From an uncultured Acidimicrobiales bacterium (GTDB taxonomy: Bacteria; Actinomycetota; Acidimicrobiia; Acidimicrobiales; SZUA-35), in contig CALAJQ010000003.1 in the NCBI GenBank assembly GCA_937922785.1, forward strand, positions 62,001 through 126,000: a stretch of 64,000 bases of DNA. Reading direction: 5' to 3'. Positions 50,507 through 57,647 of the stretch are shown one piece after another (positions within the stretch are counted from its first letter, which is position 1; the number at the start of each line of letters is the position of its first letter). A program made the position numbers and the translations under genes. The notes below the pieces were generated by a model. That model saw only the letters and a list, made by a program, of their open reading frames with translations, was not told the origin of the DNA and did no database searches.

Positions 50507-51346
50507 TTAGTCAGGCTGTACGTACTTCCAGCCGAATCGACCCTTAATGCAAAGGTGTCCGCTAGTCACCGAGTGATCGTTCGGTGATGTCACCTTCACG
50601 ATCTTTTCATCCTGCACATGCATTTCCAGGTTGCAGCCGACCCCGCAGTAGGAGCACACGGTGGTTGTGACTGTTTGCTCCTCGGGCTTCCAGTTGTCCT
50701 CTTGGCGCAAATCCCACTCGGTCTTGAATTGAATGGCGCCTGTCGGGCACACAGCCACACAGTTGCCGCAGTAGACACACGCCGATTCGGGTAAGGCCAC
50801 ATCGAACTCTGTAGAAATTCTGGATTCGAACCCACGCCCGCTGACCGCAATAGCAAATGTGTGCTGAGCGTCATCGCCACAGGCCTCTACGCACTTGTAA
50901 CAGAGGACGCACTTGTCATAGTCACGGATGTAGAGGTTGTCTTGAATCTTCACCTCTTCTTGGATCTTCAAAGGATCGTGGTAGCGAGTGGTATCGGCTC
51001 CGTAGTGAGCTGACCACTTGTTCATGTCGTCAGCTTGAGACAGATCTGTACCGCTGCCAAGGAACTCCAGGACCATTTTGCGTGAGTGTTTAACTCTGTC
51101 TGAGTCAGTCTGGACTTCCATACCTTCTTCAGCTGCGCGTGAACACGACGGCACCAATGTTCGGTTGCCTTCGACTTCCACCACACACACGCGGCACACA
51201 TTTACCGGGGTCAGGTTCTCCGCATAACAAAGCGTTGGCGTGTCTATGCCGGCCGCGTTACAGGCGTCAAGAATTGTGGCTCCGCTGGGTACCGAAACGT
51301 CATTGCCATCAACTTTGATTGTTACTTGAGTTTCTGTGACGGTCAT
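50507..51346 (-). CDS. Formate dehydrogenase iron-sulfur subunit (detached N-terminus of FdsA/FdhA)
   Basis: 279 residues. A [2Fe-2S] domain covers about 1-80 (TLCYAENLTPVNVCRVCVVEVEG), then a His/Cys region, two [4Fe-4S] ferredoxin motifs at about 138-205 (DKCVLCYKCVEACG; SACVYCGNCVAVC) and a Molybdop_Fe4S4 module at about 230-270 (CSYCGVGCNLE, CIKGRFGW). In usual NAD-linked FDHs all of this is fused to the molybdopterin domain. Here it ends at KYVQPD, and the catalytic part is a separate gene two positions upstream. It wires electrons from Mo/W to FMN. ATGA overlap with the NuoEF-like gene. Confidence 0.92.
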   Translation of the reverse strand: MTVTETQVTIKVDGNDVSVPSGATILDACNAAGIDTPTLCYAENLTPVNVCRVCVVEVEGNRTLVPSCSRAAEEGMEVQTDSDRVKHSRKMVLEFLGSGTDLSQADDMNKWSAHYGADTTRYHDPLKIQEEVKIQDNLYIRDYDKCVLCYKCVEACGDDAQHTFAIAVSGRGFESRISTEFDVALPESACVYCGNCVAVCPTGAIQFKTEWDLRQEDNWKPEEQTVTTTVCSYCGVGCNLEMHVQDEKIVKVTSPNDHSVTSGHLCIKGRFGWKYVQPD

Positions 51347-53103
51347 GATGCTCCTATTAGGCCCATTGCGATCGCGGAACGGACGGCCGTTGCCGCCGTG
51401 TGGCCGAGGCCGCAGATCGATGCGTCTCTCATTGCCATATCCATTTCTTCAATCAGCTTCACTTCACCGTTGAGTGAGCGGCCGCTGTTCTTAACCAAGA
51501 TTTCGTGTTGCCGAACTACTCCAACCCGACAAGGCACACATTGCCCGCAGCTCTCGTTGCGGAAGAACTCTGCAATGCGCGTTACGACTGCGTCGAAATT
51601 CGTCGTGTCGTTGAAGGGCATGATTACGCCTGACCCAAGTGAGGCCCCACGCTCTCGTGAACCTTCGAACGTAAGCGGCATGTCAAGCATGTCCGGACCA
51701 ACGAAGCTGCCAGCGGCGCCGCCCAAGAGGATGGCCTTGAGGTTGCCGGTAACTCCCCCAGCTTTTTCGATCATTTCGCCCAATGTGACTCCGAACGGAA
51801 CTTCGTAAACGCCTGGAGTTGCGATGTGGCCACTCAAACAGAACAGCTTTGGTCCGGTCGATCGTTCGGTACCGATCTGGCCGTAAGCCTCACCGCCGCC
51901 AAGCACGATGGGCAATACGTTAATCAGTGTCTCTGGATTGTTAATGGCTGTGGGCTTGTCGAACAGGCCGTTGGTTGTAGGGAACGGAGGCTTCTGGCGA
52001 GGTTCGCCTCTGAAACCTTCCAGTGAATTAAACAGAGCGGTCTCTTCTCCACAAATGTAGGCACCAGCGCCTCTGCGGATTTCGAGTTCAAACTTGATTG
52101 ATGAACGGGCAATACCCTCGCCCAAGAATCCGGCCTTTACTGACTCGTCAATTGCATTCTGTAGCCGAGCTGTAGCCAGCGGGTACTCGCCTCTGATGTA
52201 GACGTAGCCTTTTTCGGCGCCGGTCGCGAAGCCAGCAATGGTGGCGGCCTCAACCAAGGAGAACGGATCGTGCTCCATGATGACCCGGTCTTTGAAGGTC
52301 CCGGGTTCTGACTCATCTGCGTTGACGACGATGAACTTGTCGCCTGTTTCGCCGGCAACTGCCTTCCATTTGATGCCGGTCGGGAACGCAGCGCCTCCTC
52401 GGCCCATCAGGCCCGAAGCTGAGACGTCTTCAAGTACACCGTCTGCACCTTTTCGGAACGCTTCGGCAAGCGCCTTGAAGCCGCCCGCGCCGATGTACTG
52501 CTCCAAGCTGGTTGGATCTATCCGCCCCACCCTCTTTAGTAGCTGTAGCTCTGGGTCATAGGCCTGAGGCAAGTTGAACGCTGCTGGTTGGCCACCGGGT
52601 TCCCAATCAGCGGGAACCGAGTTCGGACCTTGTCGACCTTGAATGAACAAAGCCGGAGCACGGTCGCACTGACCAAGACATGGGCTGCGGTGGATGTGCT
52701 TACCTTCAGCCTCGAGCTTCAATATGAGGTCATCCGATGCAGCGATCTGACACGCAGCGTCGACGCACACGTGCACTACATCGTCGTTGTGGTCAGGCGC
52801 TTCGTCGACCTTGAACATCTCATAGAAGCTGGCCACCCCGTATGCCTCAGCCGGCGGCACCTGCAAGAAATCAGAGATGTAGTTGAGCCCGCCAGGTGAG
52901 ATCCACCCGGAATGGGTTTGCAGCGCGTGAAGCGCCGGCAACAGGTAATGCCGGCTTTCATTCTTGCGGGAAGTACCGCCTCGAATTAGGCGCTCACCTA
53001 AAGTCAGCTCGGCGCGCTCGGCGCCAATCTCAGATAAGGCAAAATCAATCGCAGCGGCTTCTTCGGCCGTGGCGCGATCTTCTGTTAGATAGAGGTCGGC
53101 CAC
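51343..53103 (-). CDS. NAD-dependent formate dehydrogenase diaphorase subunit (NuoE-NuoF fusion)
   Basis: 586 residues. The N-terminal ~160 are NuoE-like with a [2Fe-2S] ligand set (VHVCVDAACQ and CLGQCDRAPAL). The rest is NuoF-like: GRGGAAFPTGIKW and NADESEPGTFKDR for FMN/NADH, GAGAYICGEETAL, and a C-terminal [4Fe-4S] motif ESCGQCVPCRVG with a fourth Cys in ICGLG. It hands formate-derived electrons to NAD+. FdsG and FdsB are separate in the best-known soluble FDHs; the fusion is a variant. The GTG start overlaps the catalytic-subunit stop by 1 bp. Confidence 0.92.
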   Translation of the reverse strand: MADLYLTEDRATAEEAAAIDFALSEIGAERAELTLGERLIRGGTSRKNESRHYLLPALHALQTHSGWISPGGLNYISDFLQVPPAEAYGVASFYEMFKVDEAPDHNDDVVHVCVDAACQIAASDDLILKLEAEGKHIHRSPCLGQCDRAPALFIQGRQGPNSVPADWEPGGQPAAFNLPQAYDPELQLLKRVGRIDPTSLEQYIGAGGFKALAEAFRKGADGVLEDVSASGLMGRGGAAFPTGIKWKAVAGETGDKFIVVNADESEPGTFKDRVIMEHDPFSLVEAATIAGFATGAEKGYVYIRGEYPLATARLQNAIDESVKAGFLGEGIARSSIKFELEIRRGAGAYICGEETALFNSLEGFRGEPRQKPPFPTTNGLFDKPTAINNPETLINVLPIVLGGGEAYGQIGTERSTGPKLFCLSGHIATPGVYEVPFGVTLGEMIEKAGGVTGNLKAILLGGAAGSFVGPDMLDMPLTFEGSRERGASLGSGVIMPFNDTTNFDAVVTRIAEFFRNESCGQCVPCRVGVVRQHEILVKNSGRSLNGEVKLIEEMDMAMRDASICGLGHTAATAVRSAIAMGLIGAS

Positions 53104-55055
53104 TAGGCGTCGGCTCCCGCAGTCTCTAGATCAGCTTTCGCTGGTTCGATTTTCTCAACCCGGATTGCCGCTGCTTTGAACTCTGACGTGCCGGATTTAC
53201 GATCCCACTCGTCATTGGTCAACACGTTTGCATCAACCAGCTCTGGGAAGTGGAACGTGGTGAAGGTAAGGCCTTCTGGAATGTCGGGCTGAACCCGAAT
53301 GGCCATGTCAACCGAGCCTCGTGGCGAAGAGACCCGCACGGTCTCCCCGTTGGTGATGCCAAGGCGTTCGCAATCGGCGGGGTTCATATCCAGCTCGTCC
53401 CCGTAGCGAATCGGGCTGTCATAACCGCCGCTCTGAACACCAGTGTTGTAGCTGTCGAGCGCTCGGCCGGTTGTCAGCCGGATTGGGAACTCTTCGCTTA
53501 ACTCTTCCTTAGGTCCAGCGTGATCTACTGCTGAGAAGGGCGCAGGCGGGTTCCCACCAAGATCGTCCTCCCAGAGCCAACCGTGCAGAAATGGGCTGCC
53601 TGGATGATCGAGCGAGGGGCAGGGCCACTGCAGGCCGCCTTCAGATTCGAGACGGTCATAGGTCATGCCTGCGTGCATCGGAGAAAGGCTAAGCAGCTCA
53701 TTCCACAACTCTTCGGGCGTAGGGTCGCCCCAATCGAATCCCATTCGACGGGCTAGCTCGCCGATGATCCACTCGTCGTGGCGGGCTTCACCTGGCGGCG
53801 GAACTGCAGCACGAACTCGTTGAACTCGGCGCTCCGACGAGGTGACAGTGCCCTCATTCTCGGCCCATCCAACAGATGCGGGCAACACAACGTCGGCAAG
53901 TTCGGCGGTGCGAGTCATGAAGATGTCCTGAACCACCAACATGTCAAGCCCACTCAGCAAGTTACGGGCGTGGGTGATGTCGGCTTCTGAGTCTGCTGGG
54001 TTTTCACCGATTACATAGGCAGTGGTTATTTCACCCCGTCCCATCGCTTCAAACATGAGCGTCAGGTGGATGCCTGGTTCTGCTGGTAAGTCGACGCCGT
54101 AGACGGTCTCGAACTTCTTGAGCGAAACCTCGTCGGTGATGTCTTGGAAACCGGGCAGCTTGTTAGGCAAGGCGCCCATGTCTCCGCCACCTTGCACGTT
54201 GTTCTGGCCTCGAAGCGGAACCAGCCCGCTACCCCAACGACCCACGTGGCCAGTAAGCAGCGAGAGGTTGCAAAGAGCCAGCACGTTGTCTACAGCGTTG
54301 TGGTGCTCAGTGATACCCAGAGTCCACAGAATCTGAGCCTTCTCGGCCTTGGCATAAGCCTCGGCCATCTCGGCAATAGCGTGTGCAGGAACCCCCGTTA
54401 GTTGTTCGCCAACCTCAAGCGTGTATGGCTTCACGCTTTCGACGAAGTCTTCGTAACCGGTGGTTGAGTGCTTAATGAAGGCTTCGTTTACCAGGCCCTC
54501 ATTGATTATGTGGTTGGCCACGGTATTGGCCAACGCCACATCTGAACCCAGCTCTAACCCAAGCCAGAGGTCGGCAAACTTAGATGATGATGAGCGACGC
54601 GGATCAACCGAGTACATCTTGGCCCCGTTGTCGAGGCCAGTCATTAGGTGATGGAAGAAGATGGGGTGGGCTTCTCGGGCATTGGATCCCCAAAGCAGGA
54701 TGACATCGGTTTCCTCGATCTCTTTATAAGAACAAGTTCCGCCACCTGCACCAAACACTGTCGCCAGACCGACGACCGAAGGAGCGTGTCAGGTTCGGTT
54801 GCAAGAGTCGATGTTGTTAGAGCCCAACACCGCTCTGGAGAACTTCTGTGCTGCGTAGTTCATTTCGTTTGTGCTCTTTGAGCAGCTGAACATCGCAAAC
54901 GCGGTCGGCCCCAAAGTGTCCTTTGTTTGGGTAAATCCGGCCACTACTTTGTTGAGTGCTTCATCCCAAGATGCCGGGCGAAGCTCGCCACCTTTGGTGT
55001 CTCGGATCAGCGGCGTGGTAAGCCGCTCCTTGGGGTAATAGTTCCTTTTTGCCAT
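53103..55055 (-). CDS. Selenocysteine-containing formate dehydrogenase catalytic subunit (UGA read-through)
   Basis: About 650 residues including selenocysteine, read through the in-frame TGA at 54791-54789 (residue 89 from ATG 55055; a GTG at 55070 is an alternative start). The flanks read NNIDSCNRT-U-HAPSVVGL, aligning with the E. coli FdhF active site, where Sec sits in the same VUHGPSVAGL context. Both halves are in one frame and together cover the molybdopterin oxidoreductase domain and the C-terminal dinucleotide-binding domain (IRLTTGRALDSYNTGVQSGG). A SECIS-like hairpin follows the TGA. The Fe4S4 N-terminal module is a separate downstream gene. It oxidises formate to CO2. Calling only 53103-54758 loses the active site. 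Confidence 0.93.
54760..54791 (-). promoter_or_regulatory. Bacterial SECIS-like element in the formate dehydrogenase mRNA
   Basis: Reading the minus strand, the UGA at 54791-54789 is followed by 18 nt and then the apical loop GGUCU (54770-54766), closed by GUCGUC (54776-54771) pairing with GGCGAC (54765-54760), one pair being U-G. E. coli fdhF also places GGUCU 18 nt after its UGA (from memory of that sequence). The loop also encodes the conserved Gly-Leu, so the stem is the more independent evidence. Confidence 0.85.
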
Positions 55056-55097
55056 ACCTAAGTATCGCACCTATACGAGGCGCTAGCACCACGAAGC

Positions 55098-55119: not shown

Positions 55120-55168
55120 AACCACCGGTTCTTCCTAGAAAGAGATTTTGGGCACCTAGGCTTTCAGG

Positions 55169-55783
55169 ATGGATTTAGATTTTTGGGTTGACCCCATTTG
55201 ACCTTGGTGTTGGGTGACTGCCCGTTGGGTAGTCGATGAAGTACAACCACAGCGAGACCTAAACATAAACTGGCGACCGATCTCACTACTGGTCAAGAAT
55301 CAGCCACCCAAAGACTCTGAGTACTACGACGCTGCGATGGCAACACACCGCATGCTTCGAGTTATGGAATCTGTGCGCAAAGCCGAAGGTGACGGCCCGA
55401 TCCAGGCGCTGTATTGGGAGCTTGGAACCCGAGTTCACCACGATGGCGACCGCAACTTCGATATTGCCGATGCGCTAACTGCGGTGGGCCTAGACGCTTC
55501 TCACGCGGCTGCTGCCGATGATGAGTCATGGGACGAGGTCATCACCGACGACATGGACCAGGGTCTTACGCTTACCGGTACTGATGTTGGCACCCCGCTT
55601 CTTGGGTTTACCGACAAAAACGGCAACCAGAAGGGCATTTTTGGTCCCGTGATCTCAAAGGTCCCGCCCAAAGAAGACTCTCTCGCGTTGTTTGATGCCA
55701 TGGTCACAATGGCCACGATGGATGGGTTCTGGGAGCTAAAGCGGACCAGAACCGAAGGTCCACAGTTCGGCGACCGACCCTAG
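55169..55783 (+). CDS. Selenocysteine-containing DsbA-like oxidoreductase (UPWC; Rv2466c family)
   Basis: About 204 residues including selenocysteine. ATG 55169 is the only possible start, because TAG lies in frame at 55157. The N-terminus reads MDLDFWVDPI-U-PWCWVTARW, with TGA at 55199-55201. This aligns with FWFDPLCPWAW/CPWC at the N-terminus of mycothiol-linked Rv2466c-type DsbA proteins, so Sec replaces the first catalytic Cys (UPWC, residues 11-14). The rest fits that family end to end: LYWELGTRVHHDGDRNFDI, VGTPLLGF (cis-Pro), FGPVISKVPP, FWELKRTRTEGPQF. It probably reduces or isomerises thiols with mycothiol. Starting at GTG 55214 removes the active site. Confidence 0.9.
55199..55234 (+). 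promoter_or_regulatory. Candidate SECIS hairpin in the DsbA-like mRNA
   Basis: After the UGA (55199-55201), GACUGCCC (55216-55223) pairs with GGGUAGUC (55227-55234) over 8 bp including one G-U, closing a GUU loop that begins 22 nt after the UGA. Distance, strong stem and a G at the loop start fit the loose bacterial SECIS consensus. The loop differs from the GGUCU loop of the neighbouring gene. Confidence 0.7.
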
Positions 55784-55940
55784 CCAACTTGTTCTGGTGA
55801 CACCCAGGACCAAAACTACCTGTTCTGGCTGTGTCCGGGCCCGGATTCGGGCTTGGGCGCAGCCAGAATCGATTTTCGGCCTCAAACGGAGCGTTAAACA
55901 GCCACGACCCGCAGTGGCCCAGCCTGTACGGTAATGGGCT

Positions 55941-57647
55941 ATGCGCTGGTCAAAACTGTTCGTTCCTACACTTCGAGATGCACCTAACGATGCTGTAGCT
56001 CCGAGCCACAAGTTGCTGATTCGCGGCGGCTTCATCCGTCAGCTTCATGCTGGCCACTACTCAATGTTGCCCATGGGTTGGCGGGTGCACCAAAAGGTTG
56101 CCCAGATCGTTCGCGATGAGATAGACGCAATAGGTGGTCAAGAGTTCCTGCTTCCCACCATGCATCCTGCCGAGATCTGGCAAAAAAGTGGCCGCTGGGA
56201 CACGATGGGCGAAATCATGTTCCGTCTTGAGGACCGCAAAGGCGCTCCAAACGCACTGGGCATAACTCACGAAGAGATTTTCTCCACAGTGGCAGCAGAA
56301 CTGAGCAGCTACAAGCAGTTGCCCCAGCTTTGGTACCACATCCAAACCAAGTTCCGTGACGAAGCAAGACCCAAGAGCGGCCTCTTGCGAGTGCGCGAGT
56401 TCCACATGAAGGACAGCTATTCGTTTGACGTCGATGCTGATGGGTTAGACCGACAATTCGAAGCCCACGACCAGGCCTACCAGCGAATATTCGAGCGAAT
56501 TGGCGTCCCGTCGTTCGGTGTAGAGGCGTCGTCGGGAGCCATGGGCGGCAATAGCTCAATCGAGTTCATGACACCCTCTATGGCGGGTGAAGACGACGTA
56601 GTCCTATGCCCAAATTGTGACTACAAGGCAAACGTCGAGCGCGCCACCTCGGCACTGCCGCCTATCAGTGACGATGCTCCTCCCGCCAAGCCCGAAAAAT
56701 TTGCTACGCCTGGTATTCGAACTATCGCTGCGCTCGAAGAAGCGGGTGCACCGGCCGATCGCCAGTTGAAGACTCTTGTAATGGTGCTTGACGATGAGAT
56801 CACCCTTGCGGTTGTCCGCGGAGATCACCAACTGAACCTTCAGAAGTTGATCGATTCCACTGGTGCTATCCAAGTTCGGCCAGCCGAAGCTAATGAAGCG
56901 TTCGCGGCGCTGGGCGCCCACCCTGGAAGCTTAGGGGCGGTTGGGGTTACCGGCCTGAAGATCATCATGGATGAGTCTTTGCGAGGCCGGACCAACATGA
57001 CTACCGGCGCCAACGAGGACGACTGGCATTTCCGCGGAGTAGACGTGGCCACAGACATCGCCGTCGATCAATGGGCTGACCTGCGTGAGGTAGGTGCAGG
57101 CGAACCGTGCATCCGGTGCGGATCCATACTTGAGGTAGTCCGGTGCATCGAGGTCGGCCACATCTTCAAACTGGGAACCAAATACGCAGAGACCTTTGGT
57201 GTCAGGGTCGGCAACGCTGACAATGCGGACGTTCCTGTTCACATGGGTTCATACGGGATAGGTATTGGCCGCAACATGGCTGCATCTGTTGAAGCCAATC
57301 ATGATGACAAAGGCATCGTATGGCCAGTAGCCATTGCGCCATTTGAAGTTGTTGTAATAGCGATGAGGCTGGACGAGGAAACGCTGGGGGCCGCCGAAGC
57401 GCTCTACAACGAACTGAAAGCAGCTGGGGTAGACGCTCTGCTTGACGATCGCGATGCCCGAGCTGGGGTCAAGTTTGCCGATGCGGAGCTTGTGGGAATT
57501 CCGTTCCGACTGACCGTTGGCCCCAAAGGCATCGCTAGCGGCAACTTCGAATTGCACAACCGCCAGACCGGCGAGACGTCAGAGCTGGCAATCGCAGACT
57601 CAGCACAGACTTTGATCGACGCTGTCCGTCAAGCCAAGAGCCAATAA
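55941..57647 (+). CDS. proS: Prolyl-tRNA synthetase, bacterial type
   Basis: 568 residues, the usual length for the bacterial form with an inserted editing domain. Class II motifs are visible: QLHAGHYSMLPMGWRVHQKVAQIVRDEID, the motif 2 loop in KFRDEARPKSGLLRVREFHMKDSYSFD, and motif 3 in VPVHMGSYGIGIGRNMAA. The INS editing domain lies at about 225-385, and a C-terminal anticodon-binding domain starts near 460 (VVIAMRLDEETLGAAEALYNEL). It charges tRNA-Pro. The 157-bp gap upstream contains a weak hairpin at 55839-55852 and no gene. Confidence 0.96.
   Translation: MRWSKLFVPTLRDAPNDAVAPSHKLLIRGGFIRQLHAGHYSMLPMGWRVHQKVAQIVRDEIDAIGGQEFLLPTMHPAEIWQKSGRWDTMGEIMFRLEDRKGAPNALGITHEEIFSTVAAELSSYKQLPQLWYHIQTKFRDEARPKSGLLRVREFHMKDSYSFDVDADGLDRQFEAHDQAYQRIFERIGVPSFGVEASSGAMGGNSSIEFMTPSMAGEDDVVLCPNCDYKANVERATSALPPISDDAPPAKPEKFATPGIRTIAALEEAGAPADRQLKTLVMVLDDEITLAVVRGDHQLNLQKLIDSTGAIQVRPAEANEAFAALGAHPGSLGAVGVTGLKIIMDESLRGRTNMTTGANEDDWHFRGVDVATDIAVDQWADLREVGAGEPCIRCGSILEVVRCIEVGHIFKLGTKYAETFGVRVGNADNADVPVHMGSYGIGIGRNMAASVEANHDDKGIVWPVAIAPFEVVVIAMRLDEETLGAAEALYNELKAAGVDALLDDRDARAGVKFADAELVGIPFRLTVGPKGIASGNFELHNRQTGETSELAIADSAQTLIDAVRQAKSQ

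Follow-up and report, generated by a model that had tools for sequence, protein, structure and literature searches.

The window, a stretch of 64,000 nucleotides from an uncultured Acidimicrobiales bacterium, carries a gene (55169–55783, + strand) whose frame runs from an ATG at 55169 to a TAG at 55781–55783 and is crossed by a single in-frame TGA at 55199–55201 (+), codon 11. Read through this triplet, the frame encodes a DsbA-like protein of 204 amino acids of the Rv2466c/Mrx2 type with U11-P12-W13-C14 at its active site: the TGA occupies the position of Rv2466c Cys19 as a selenocysteine (Sec) codon and a TGT codon (55208–55210, +) provides the second, resolving Cys14 at the position of Rv2466c Cys22. 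The residues around the TGA, MDLDFWVDPI-U-PWCWVTARWVVDEV, follow one another without a frameshift. An in-frame TAG at 55157–55159 (+) lies upstream, so that no earlier start is available and ATG 55169 is the sole start ahead of the TGA. The 3′ side of the gene harbours a terminator-like hairpin (55824–55867, +), a kind of structure that chance alone would produce about once in the region scanned, and a prolyl-tRNA synthetase-like ORF (55941–57647, +) named from its sequence. On the other flank, and divergently oriented, lies the catalytic subunit of a formate dehydrogenase (53103–55070, −) with an in-frame TGA at 54789–54791 (CNRT-U-HAPSV). This is the second Sec gene of the window; ORF calling splits it, and behind its TGA lies a hairpin whose loop reads GGUCU. 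The alpha subunit itself appears to be divided: the Sec part begins approximately 48 residues into the model, and a stretch resembling the missing Fe-S part (CSYCGVGC...CIKGRFGW) ends a separate protein at 50507–51346 (−).

The read-through protein matches the Pfam family PF22234 (Rv2466c-like, mycothiol-dependent nitroreductase) over model positions 1–180 of 180, with 138.6 bits against a gathering cut-off of 27 (E 3.3e-40), and the C-P-W-C active site of this family is present as U-P-W-C, Sec replacing the first Cys. A phmmer alignment runs end to end with Rv2466c chains of Mycobacterium tuberculosis (E about 1e-39) and sets the TGA in the column of Cys19 of the motif C19-P-W-C22. The general DSBA family PF01323 is also matched in Pfam, more weakly, and the NCBIfam models gave no match at E 0.001. 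An AlphaFold model of the Sec protein, built on an alignment of 14 sequences, has a mean pLDDT of 93.6. The ten solved chains closest to it are all Rv2466c or its M. leprae homologue (best TM 0.83, lowest E 2e-15). The next folds are those of FrnE, DR2335 and kappa-class GST, none with an E better than 3e-6. An earlier note on this DNA had placed one TGA where the CPWC motif of Rv2466c-type proteins has its first catalytic Cys, had seen the family alignment continue on both sides without a frameshift and had taken the TAG at 55157 to exclude another start; translation and the phmmer alignment bear out each of these readings.

The simplest objection is that the TGA is a real stop, marking a pseudogene, a sequencing error or a short protein of 189 amino acids that starts at GTG 55214. 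Mechanical ORF calling indeed yields the frame GTG 55214–55783. Such a product, however, would lose the first strand and the entire active-site motif, and the residues ahead of the TGA are conserved. A scan of 84,980 public species genomes, from which the best 80 loci were taken, returned TGA at this column in 77 of the 80 and TGC or TGT in the other three (L135, L139, L147); the titles of these loci are nearly all Acidimicrobiia, Acidimicrobiales, Acidimicrobiaceae, Ilumatobacter, Microthrix or Actinomycetota. One TGA-form locus, L138, comes from a record ('Acidimicrobiia bacterium EGI L10123') that bears no metagenome-bin label, and its organism may be culturable. In the taxonomic family itself, almost every close homologue contains exactly one TGA, at this column wherever it was read, and 38 loci of the family set share it. 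As the triplet recurs at one column in these 38 loci and in the 77 of the best 80 public loci, it is not there by chance; 58 genomes of the order also carry the TGA form. The comparison of sequences in effect refutes the real stop, which may be regarded as vanishingly improbable, and a misread TGT or TGC, the refuting case named in the earlier note, is excluded by the many independent assemblies.

The exchange at this column is confined to two residues: homologues have Sec or Cys and nothing else, with no scattered stops or frameshifts, which is the Cys/Sec exchange that had been proposed as a check. Among the 298 genomes of the order, a selA match was found in 58 of the 58 with a TGA-form orthologue (defined as a match above 230 bits and counted by hand), although these counts are not independent because of kinship; selA occurs overall in 185 of the 298 genomes, in 175 of them above the cut-off. 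Two genomes of the family set that lack selA (G016 and G017) have Cys forms, and a third without selA (G018), an incomplete genome, has no homologue. Cys forms are found in selA-positive genomes too. In the phylum sample the TGA form is limited to G000, G069 and G301, whose loci belong to the same order, and the others that were read have Cys, the distant locus L188 apart. Among the loci of the public scan, L112 and L115 also contain a distant paralogue each, with TGT and TGC respectively. A tree of 140 sequences, 89 with TGA and 51 with Cys, calls for at least nine changes between Sec and Cys, several of its forks being weak. One genome (G038) holds a natural pair, with a Sec form (L019) and a Cys form (L053). 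Viral contigs contained no relatives.

Ten distant matches of the phylum sample that had been flagged as having one TGA (L178, L180–L187, L189) were rejected as Sec forms: their codon 11 is TGC or TGT, and the TGA is the terminal stop or falls outside the aligned part. L188 (G638:C46) is alone among the flagged matches that were checked in having TGA at codon 11. This distant Rv2466c-like paralogue reads FFFDPG-U-PWT, with Sec and no resolving Cys, and has a similarly placed hairpin; its U-P-W-T looks like a separate Sec acquisition.

The TGA of the window's gene is followed, after 14 nt, by a SECIS-like hairpin. Its 5′ strand (GACTGCCC, 55216–55223, +) pairs over 8 bp with its 3′ strand (GGGTAGTC, 55227–55234, +) around an apical GTT loop (55224–55226, +; GUU in the mRNA), 22 nt separating the UGA from the loop, in agreement with the 8-bp hairpin at SECIS distance described in the earlier note. 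The minimum free energy (MFE) of the 45-nt stretch is −16.1 kcal/mol. The bacterial SECIS model of PMC13188914 has a loop of 3–9 nt with G in its first two positions, a stem of 4–16 bp, 16–37 nt from UGA to loop and an MFE of at most −7.5; on all four counts of that model the hairpin lies within range, its loop of the minimum length having G first. An Rfam gathering scan of the whole window returned 0 matches, so this SECIS has no curated match.

Evidence that the structure is maintained comes from both pairing and covariation. In a set of 23 different Sec sequences, standard pairs make up 98.4% of the pair cells and 14 cells are altered on both sides; the window's own copy has T-A as its fourth stem pair, a compensatory change with respect to the common G-C. 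The covariation score of the hairpin is 0.325, as opposed to 0.128 after shuffling (0 of 500); slid control structures pair in only 15–57% of cells. Seven or eight of the eight stem pairs form in the 89 Sec loci, as against one to six in 16 Cys loci. The loop has G-U in 89 of the 89 Sec forms counted: the Arg codon that forms it is CGT, AGG or CGG only, all of which yield G-U in the loop, whereas Cys forms mostly have CGC, CGA or other codons at this position. Codon homozygosity at the fourfold codons 16–22, inside the hairpin, is 0.87–0.97, against a mean of 0.45 and a maximum of 0.72 elsewhere. The synonymous sites of the Sec gene are frozen solely within the hairpin.

The window's genome (4.9 Mb in 45 contigs, 96% complete) contains the full set of SelA, SelB, SelD and tRNA-Sec, the four items for which the earlier note had asked the genome to be checked. 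The selA and selB genes adjoin (C21:42693–44938), selD is on C16 (368 bits) and the tRNA-Sec is at C45:9760 (66.7 bits), with ARAGORN agreeing on an anticodon TCA (UCA). The selD gene (L051) has an in-frame TGA of its own at the catalytic Cys, SHGAG-U-GCK.

Some bacteria are reported to possess Cys tRNAs that decode opal, and homologues have Cys at the column in question, so that the UGA might be read by a special tRNA of this kind to give an ordinary CPWC enzyme. The genome, however, possesses a complete Sec system, the TGA form tracks selA, and the SelB-type hairpin is kept where a plain suppressor tRNA would not need it; furthermore, TGA serves as a normal stop, ending 18 of the 49 long ORFs of the window. 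Reading of the UGA as Cys is accordingly very improbable. The machinery, the conserved TGA, the covarying hairpin and the Sec/Cys exchange together uphold the Sec insertion first proposed on the strength of the triplet and the hairpin: it is nearly certain that the UGA at 55199 is a Sec codon.

What the enzyme does has to be approached through its relatives. The nucleophile of Rv2466c is Cys19, and two mycothiols reduce the Cys19–Cys22 disulfide (PMC11841060); SigH induces the gene when the cell is under oxidative stress, and nitro prodrugs are reduced by the enzyme (PMC11841060, PMC7052010). The genome under study has an MshC-like gene (L070, C9:236340–237428) scoring 434 bits against an NCBIfam curated cut-off of 485.1, and an MshA-like gene (L197, C19:49361–50536) scoring 417 bits against 462.5. 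The other CysRS-type gene of this genome reaches 269 bits with the MshC model and the next glycosyltransferase 92 bits with the MshA model. These genes just below the cut-offs suggest a divergent mycothiol pathway in Acidimicrobiales, and the organism of the window is likely to make mycothiol. A different view accepts Sec and holds that the enzyme is not linked to mycothiol, being instead a DsbA/FrnE-like enzyme of the general kind that isomerises or reduces disulfides and receives its electrons from thioredoxin or some other thiol. The additional match to PF01323 speaks for it, as do the MshA and MshC scores under the curated cut-offs and the genome G017, a Cys-form carrier whose single match to the MshC model is at the level of an ordinary CysRS. 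Against it, Rv2466c is the nearest relative in both sequence and fold, well apart from the FrnE/DsbA folds, and the MshC-like and MshA-like genes far outscore their nearest paralogues. This alternative is thus a possibility of some substance, albeit the less probable one, and the likeliest role of the Sec protein is that of a selenol/disulfide reductase (UPWC) linked to mycothiol, the mycothiol part resting on homology and on the MshA/MshC-like genes.

The best explanation of the locus, in which Sec codon, SECIS, machinery, family and fold come from computation and the catalytic cycle and mycothiol are what we infer, is that of a genuine selenoprotein: UGA 55199 would be translated as Sec by means of the hairpin, giving a PF22234-type reductase with U11 as nucleophile and a thiol, probably mycothiol, for recycling. 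The probability of this reading is put at roughly 85%. SelB and tRNA-Sec would decode the UGA under the direction of the mRNA hairpin 55216–55234, and the product would be a thioredoxin-fold reductase of the Rv2466c/Mrx2 type (PF22234) in which the nucleophilic Cys is swapped for Sec. The U11 selenolate would then attack a disulfide or another oxidised or electrophilic substrate, and C14 would resolve the intermediate by formation of an internal selenenylsulfide, which a low-molecular-weight thiol, probably mycothiol, would reduce back. By homology, the Sec form should perform the same chemistry as Rv2466c but with a selenolate.

The surroundings of the Sec genes offer one lead rather than a finding. 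Among 57 upstream neighbours scanned with Pfam, 21 are FrhB_FdhB-type coenzyme F420 genes directly upstream of the Sec gene (for example at L082, L088 and L113), on its strand and mostly separated by short gaps; most of the encoded proteins are 83–92% identical to the first one. On this basis the enzyme might, in part of the group, be paired with the FrhB-type F420-dependent flavoprotein encoded upstream and draw its electrons from F420H2. The window's genome does have a homologue that is 79% identical (L199), but on another contig and beside another neighbour, whereas the Sec gene here adjoins formate dehydrogenase; moreover, the adjacency may be the plain gene order of one clade. Such a pairing is unlikely. 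On the downstream side, re-picked neighbours scanned with Pfam revealed no consistent partner. The neighbours that were scanned did not include pepN, a neighbour in mycobacteria. A broader picture, speculative and rather doubtful, would have Acidimicrobiia maintain a selenium branch of mycothiol redox metabolism, comprising a Sec-Mrx2, coupled in some lineages to F420 via the upstream FrhB-type flavoprotein, and a divergent paralogue (UPWT, L188) with a Sec acquisition of its own and a single working selenol.

These assignments bring the mycothiol-dependent Rv2466c/Mrx2 branch into the selenoproteome, and Sec use proves widespread and evolutionarily fluid in the little-cultured class Acidimicrobiia. 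The gene is also a case of truncation by ordinary ORF calling, and natural Sec/Cys pairs, some within one genome, provide a handle on the benefit of selenium to a mycothiol-linked reductase. A literature search largely confined to papers free of subscription yielded no report of Rv2466c with selenium, none joining mycothiol with this selenoprotein and none of selenoproteins in Acidimicrobiia. For Sec in the Rv2466c/mycothiol-dependent branch, no earlier report was found and no NCBIfam model covers it.

DsbA-like selenoproteins as such are well documented. UxxC forms are listed for the Sargasso Sea (COG2761, 9 sequences; PMC1088965), for GOS as DsbA 1–3 (PMC2398784), in genome surveys of 2006 and 2016 (PMC1794560, PMC5029168) and, under PF01323, in reviews of 2022 and 2026 (PMC9312934, PMC13188914); the hosts named in the table of the 2006 survey are Deltaproteobacteria and Clostridia. 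The remark that Sec in such an enzyme would be unusual therefore stands for the Rv2466c branch, of which no description was found, and does not extend to DsbA-like UxxC selenoproteins, catalogued since 2005. The catalogued proteins (COG2761; GOS DsbA 1–3; 'DsbA-like form 1' of 2026) likewise have a DsbA fold with Sec first in UxxC, but in the passages retrieved they are filed as COG2761 or PF01323 without assignment to the Rv2466c branch; this comparison is by description, and overlap with some of their metagenomic members is possible. The neighbouring FdhA selenoprotein, in the same genome, also combines a UGA with a hairpin further downstream whose loop contains G-U, yet it is a different enzyme and its loop is GGUCU as opposed to the GUU of the DsbA-like gene. 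The closest known system is Rv2466c/Mrx2 of M. tuberculosis (PF22234; PDB 4NXI, 4ZIL, 5XUR), which has the same fold and is homologous end to end, sharing the active-site column and the Pro-Trp-Cys that follows; the Sec protein starts at the first strand, which leaves no room for a signal peptide. The protein described here differs from it in having Sec for the first catalytic Cys, in an identity of 35–38% and in its Acidimicrobiales host.
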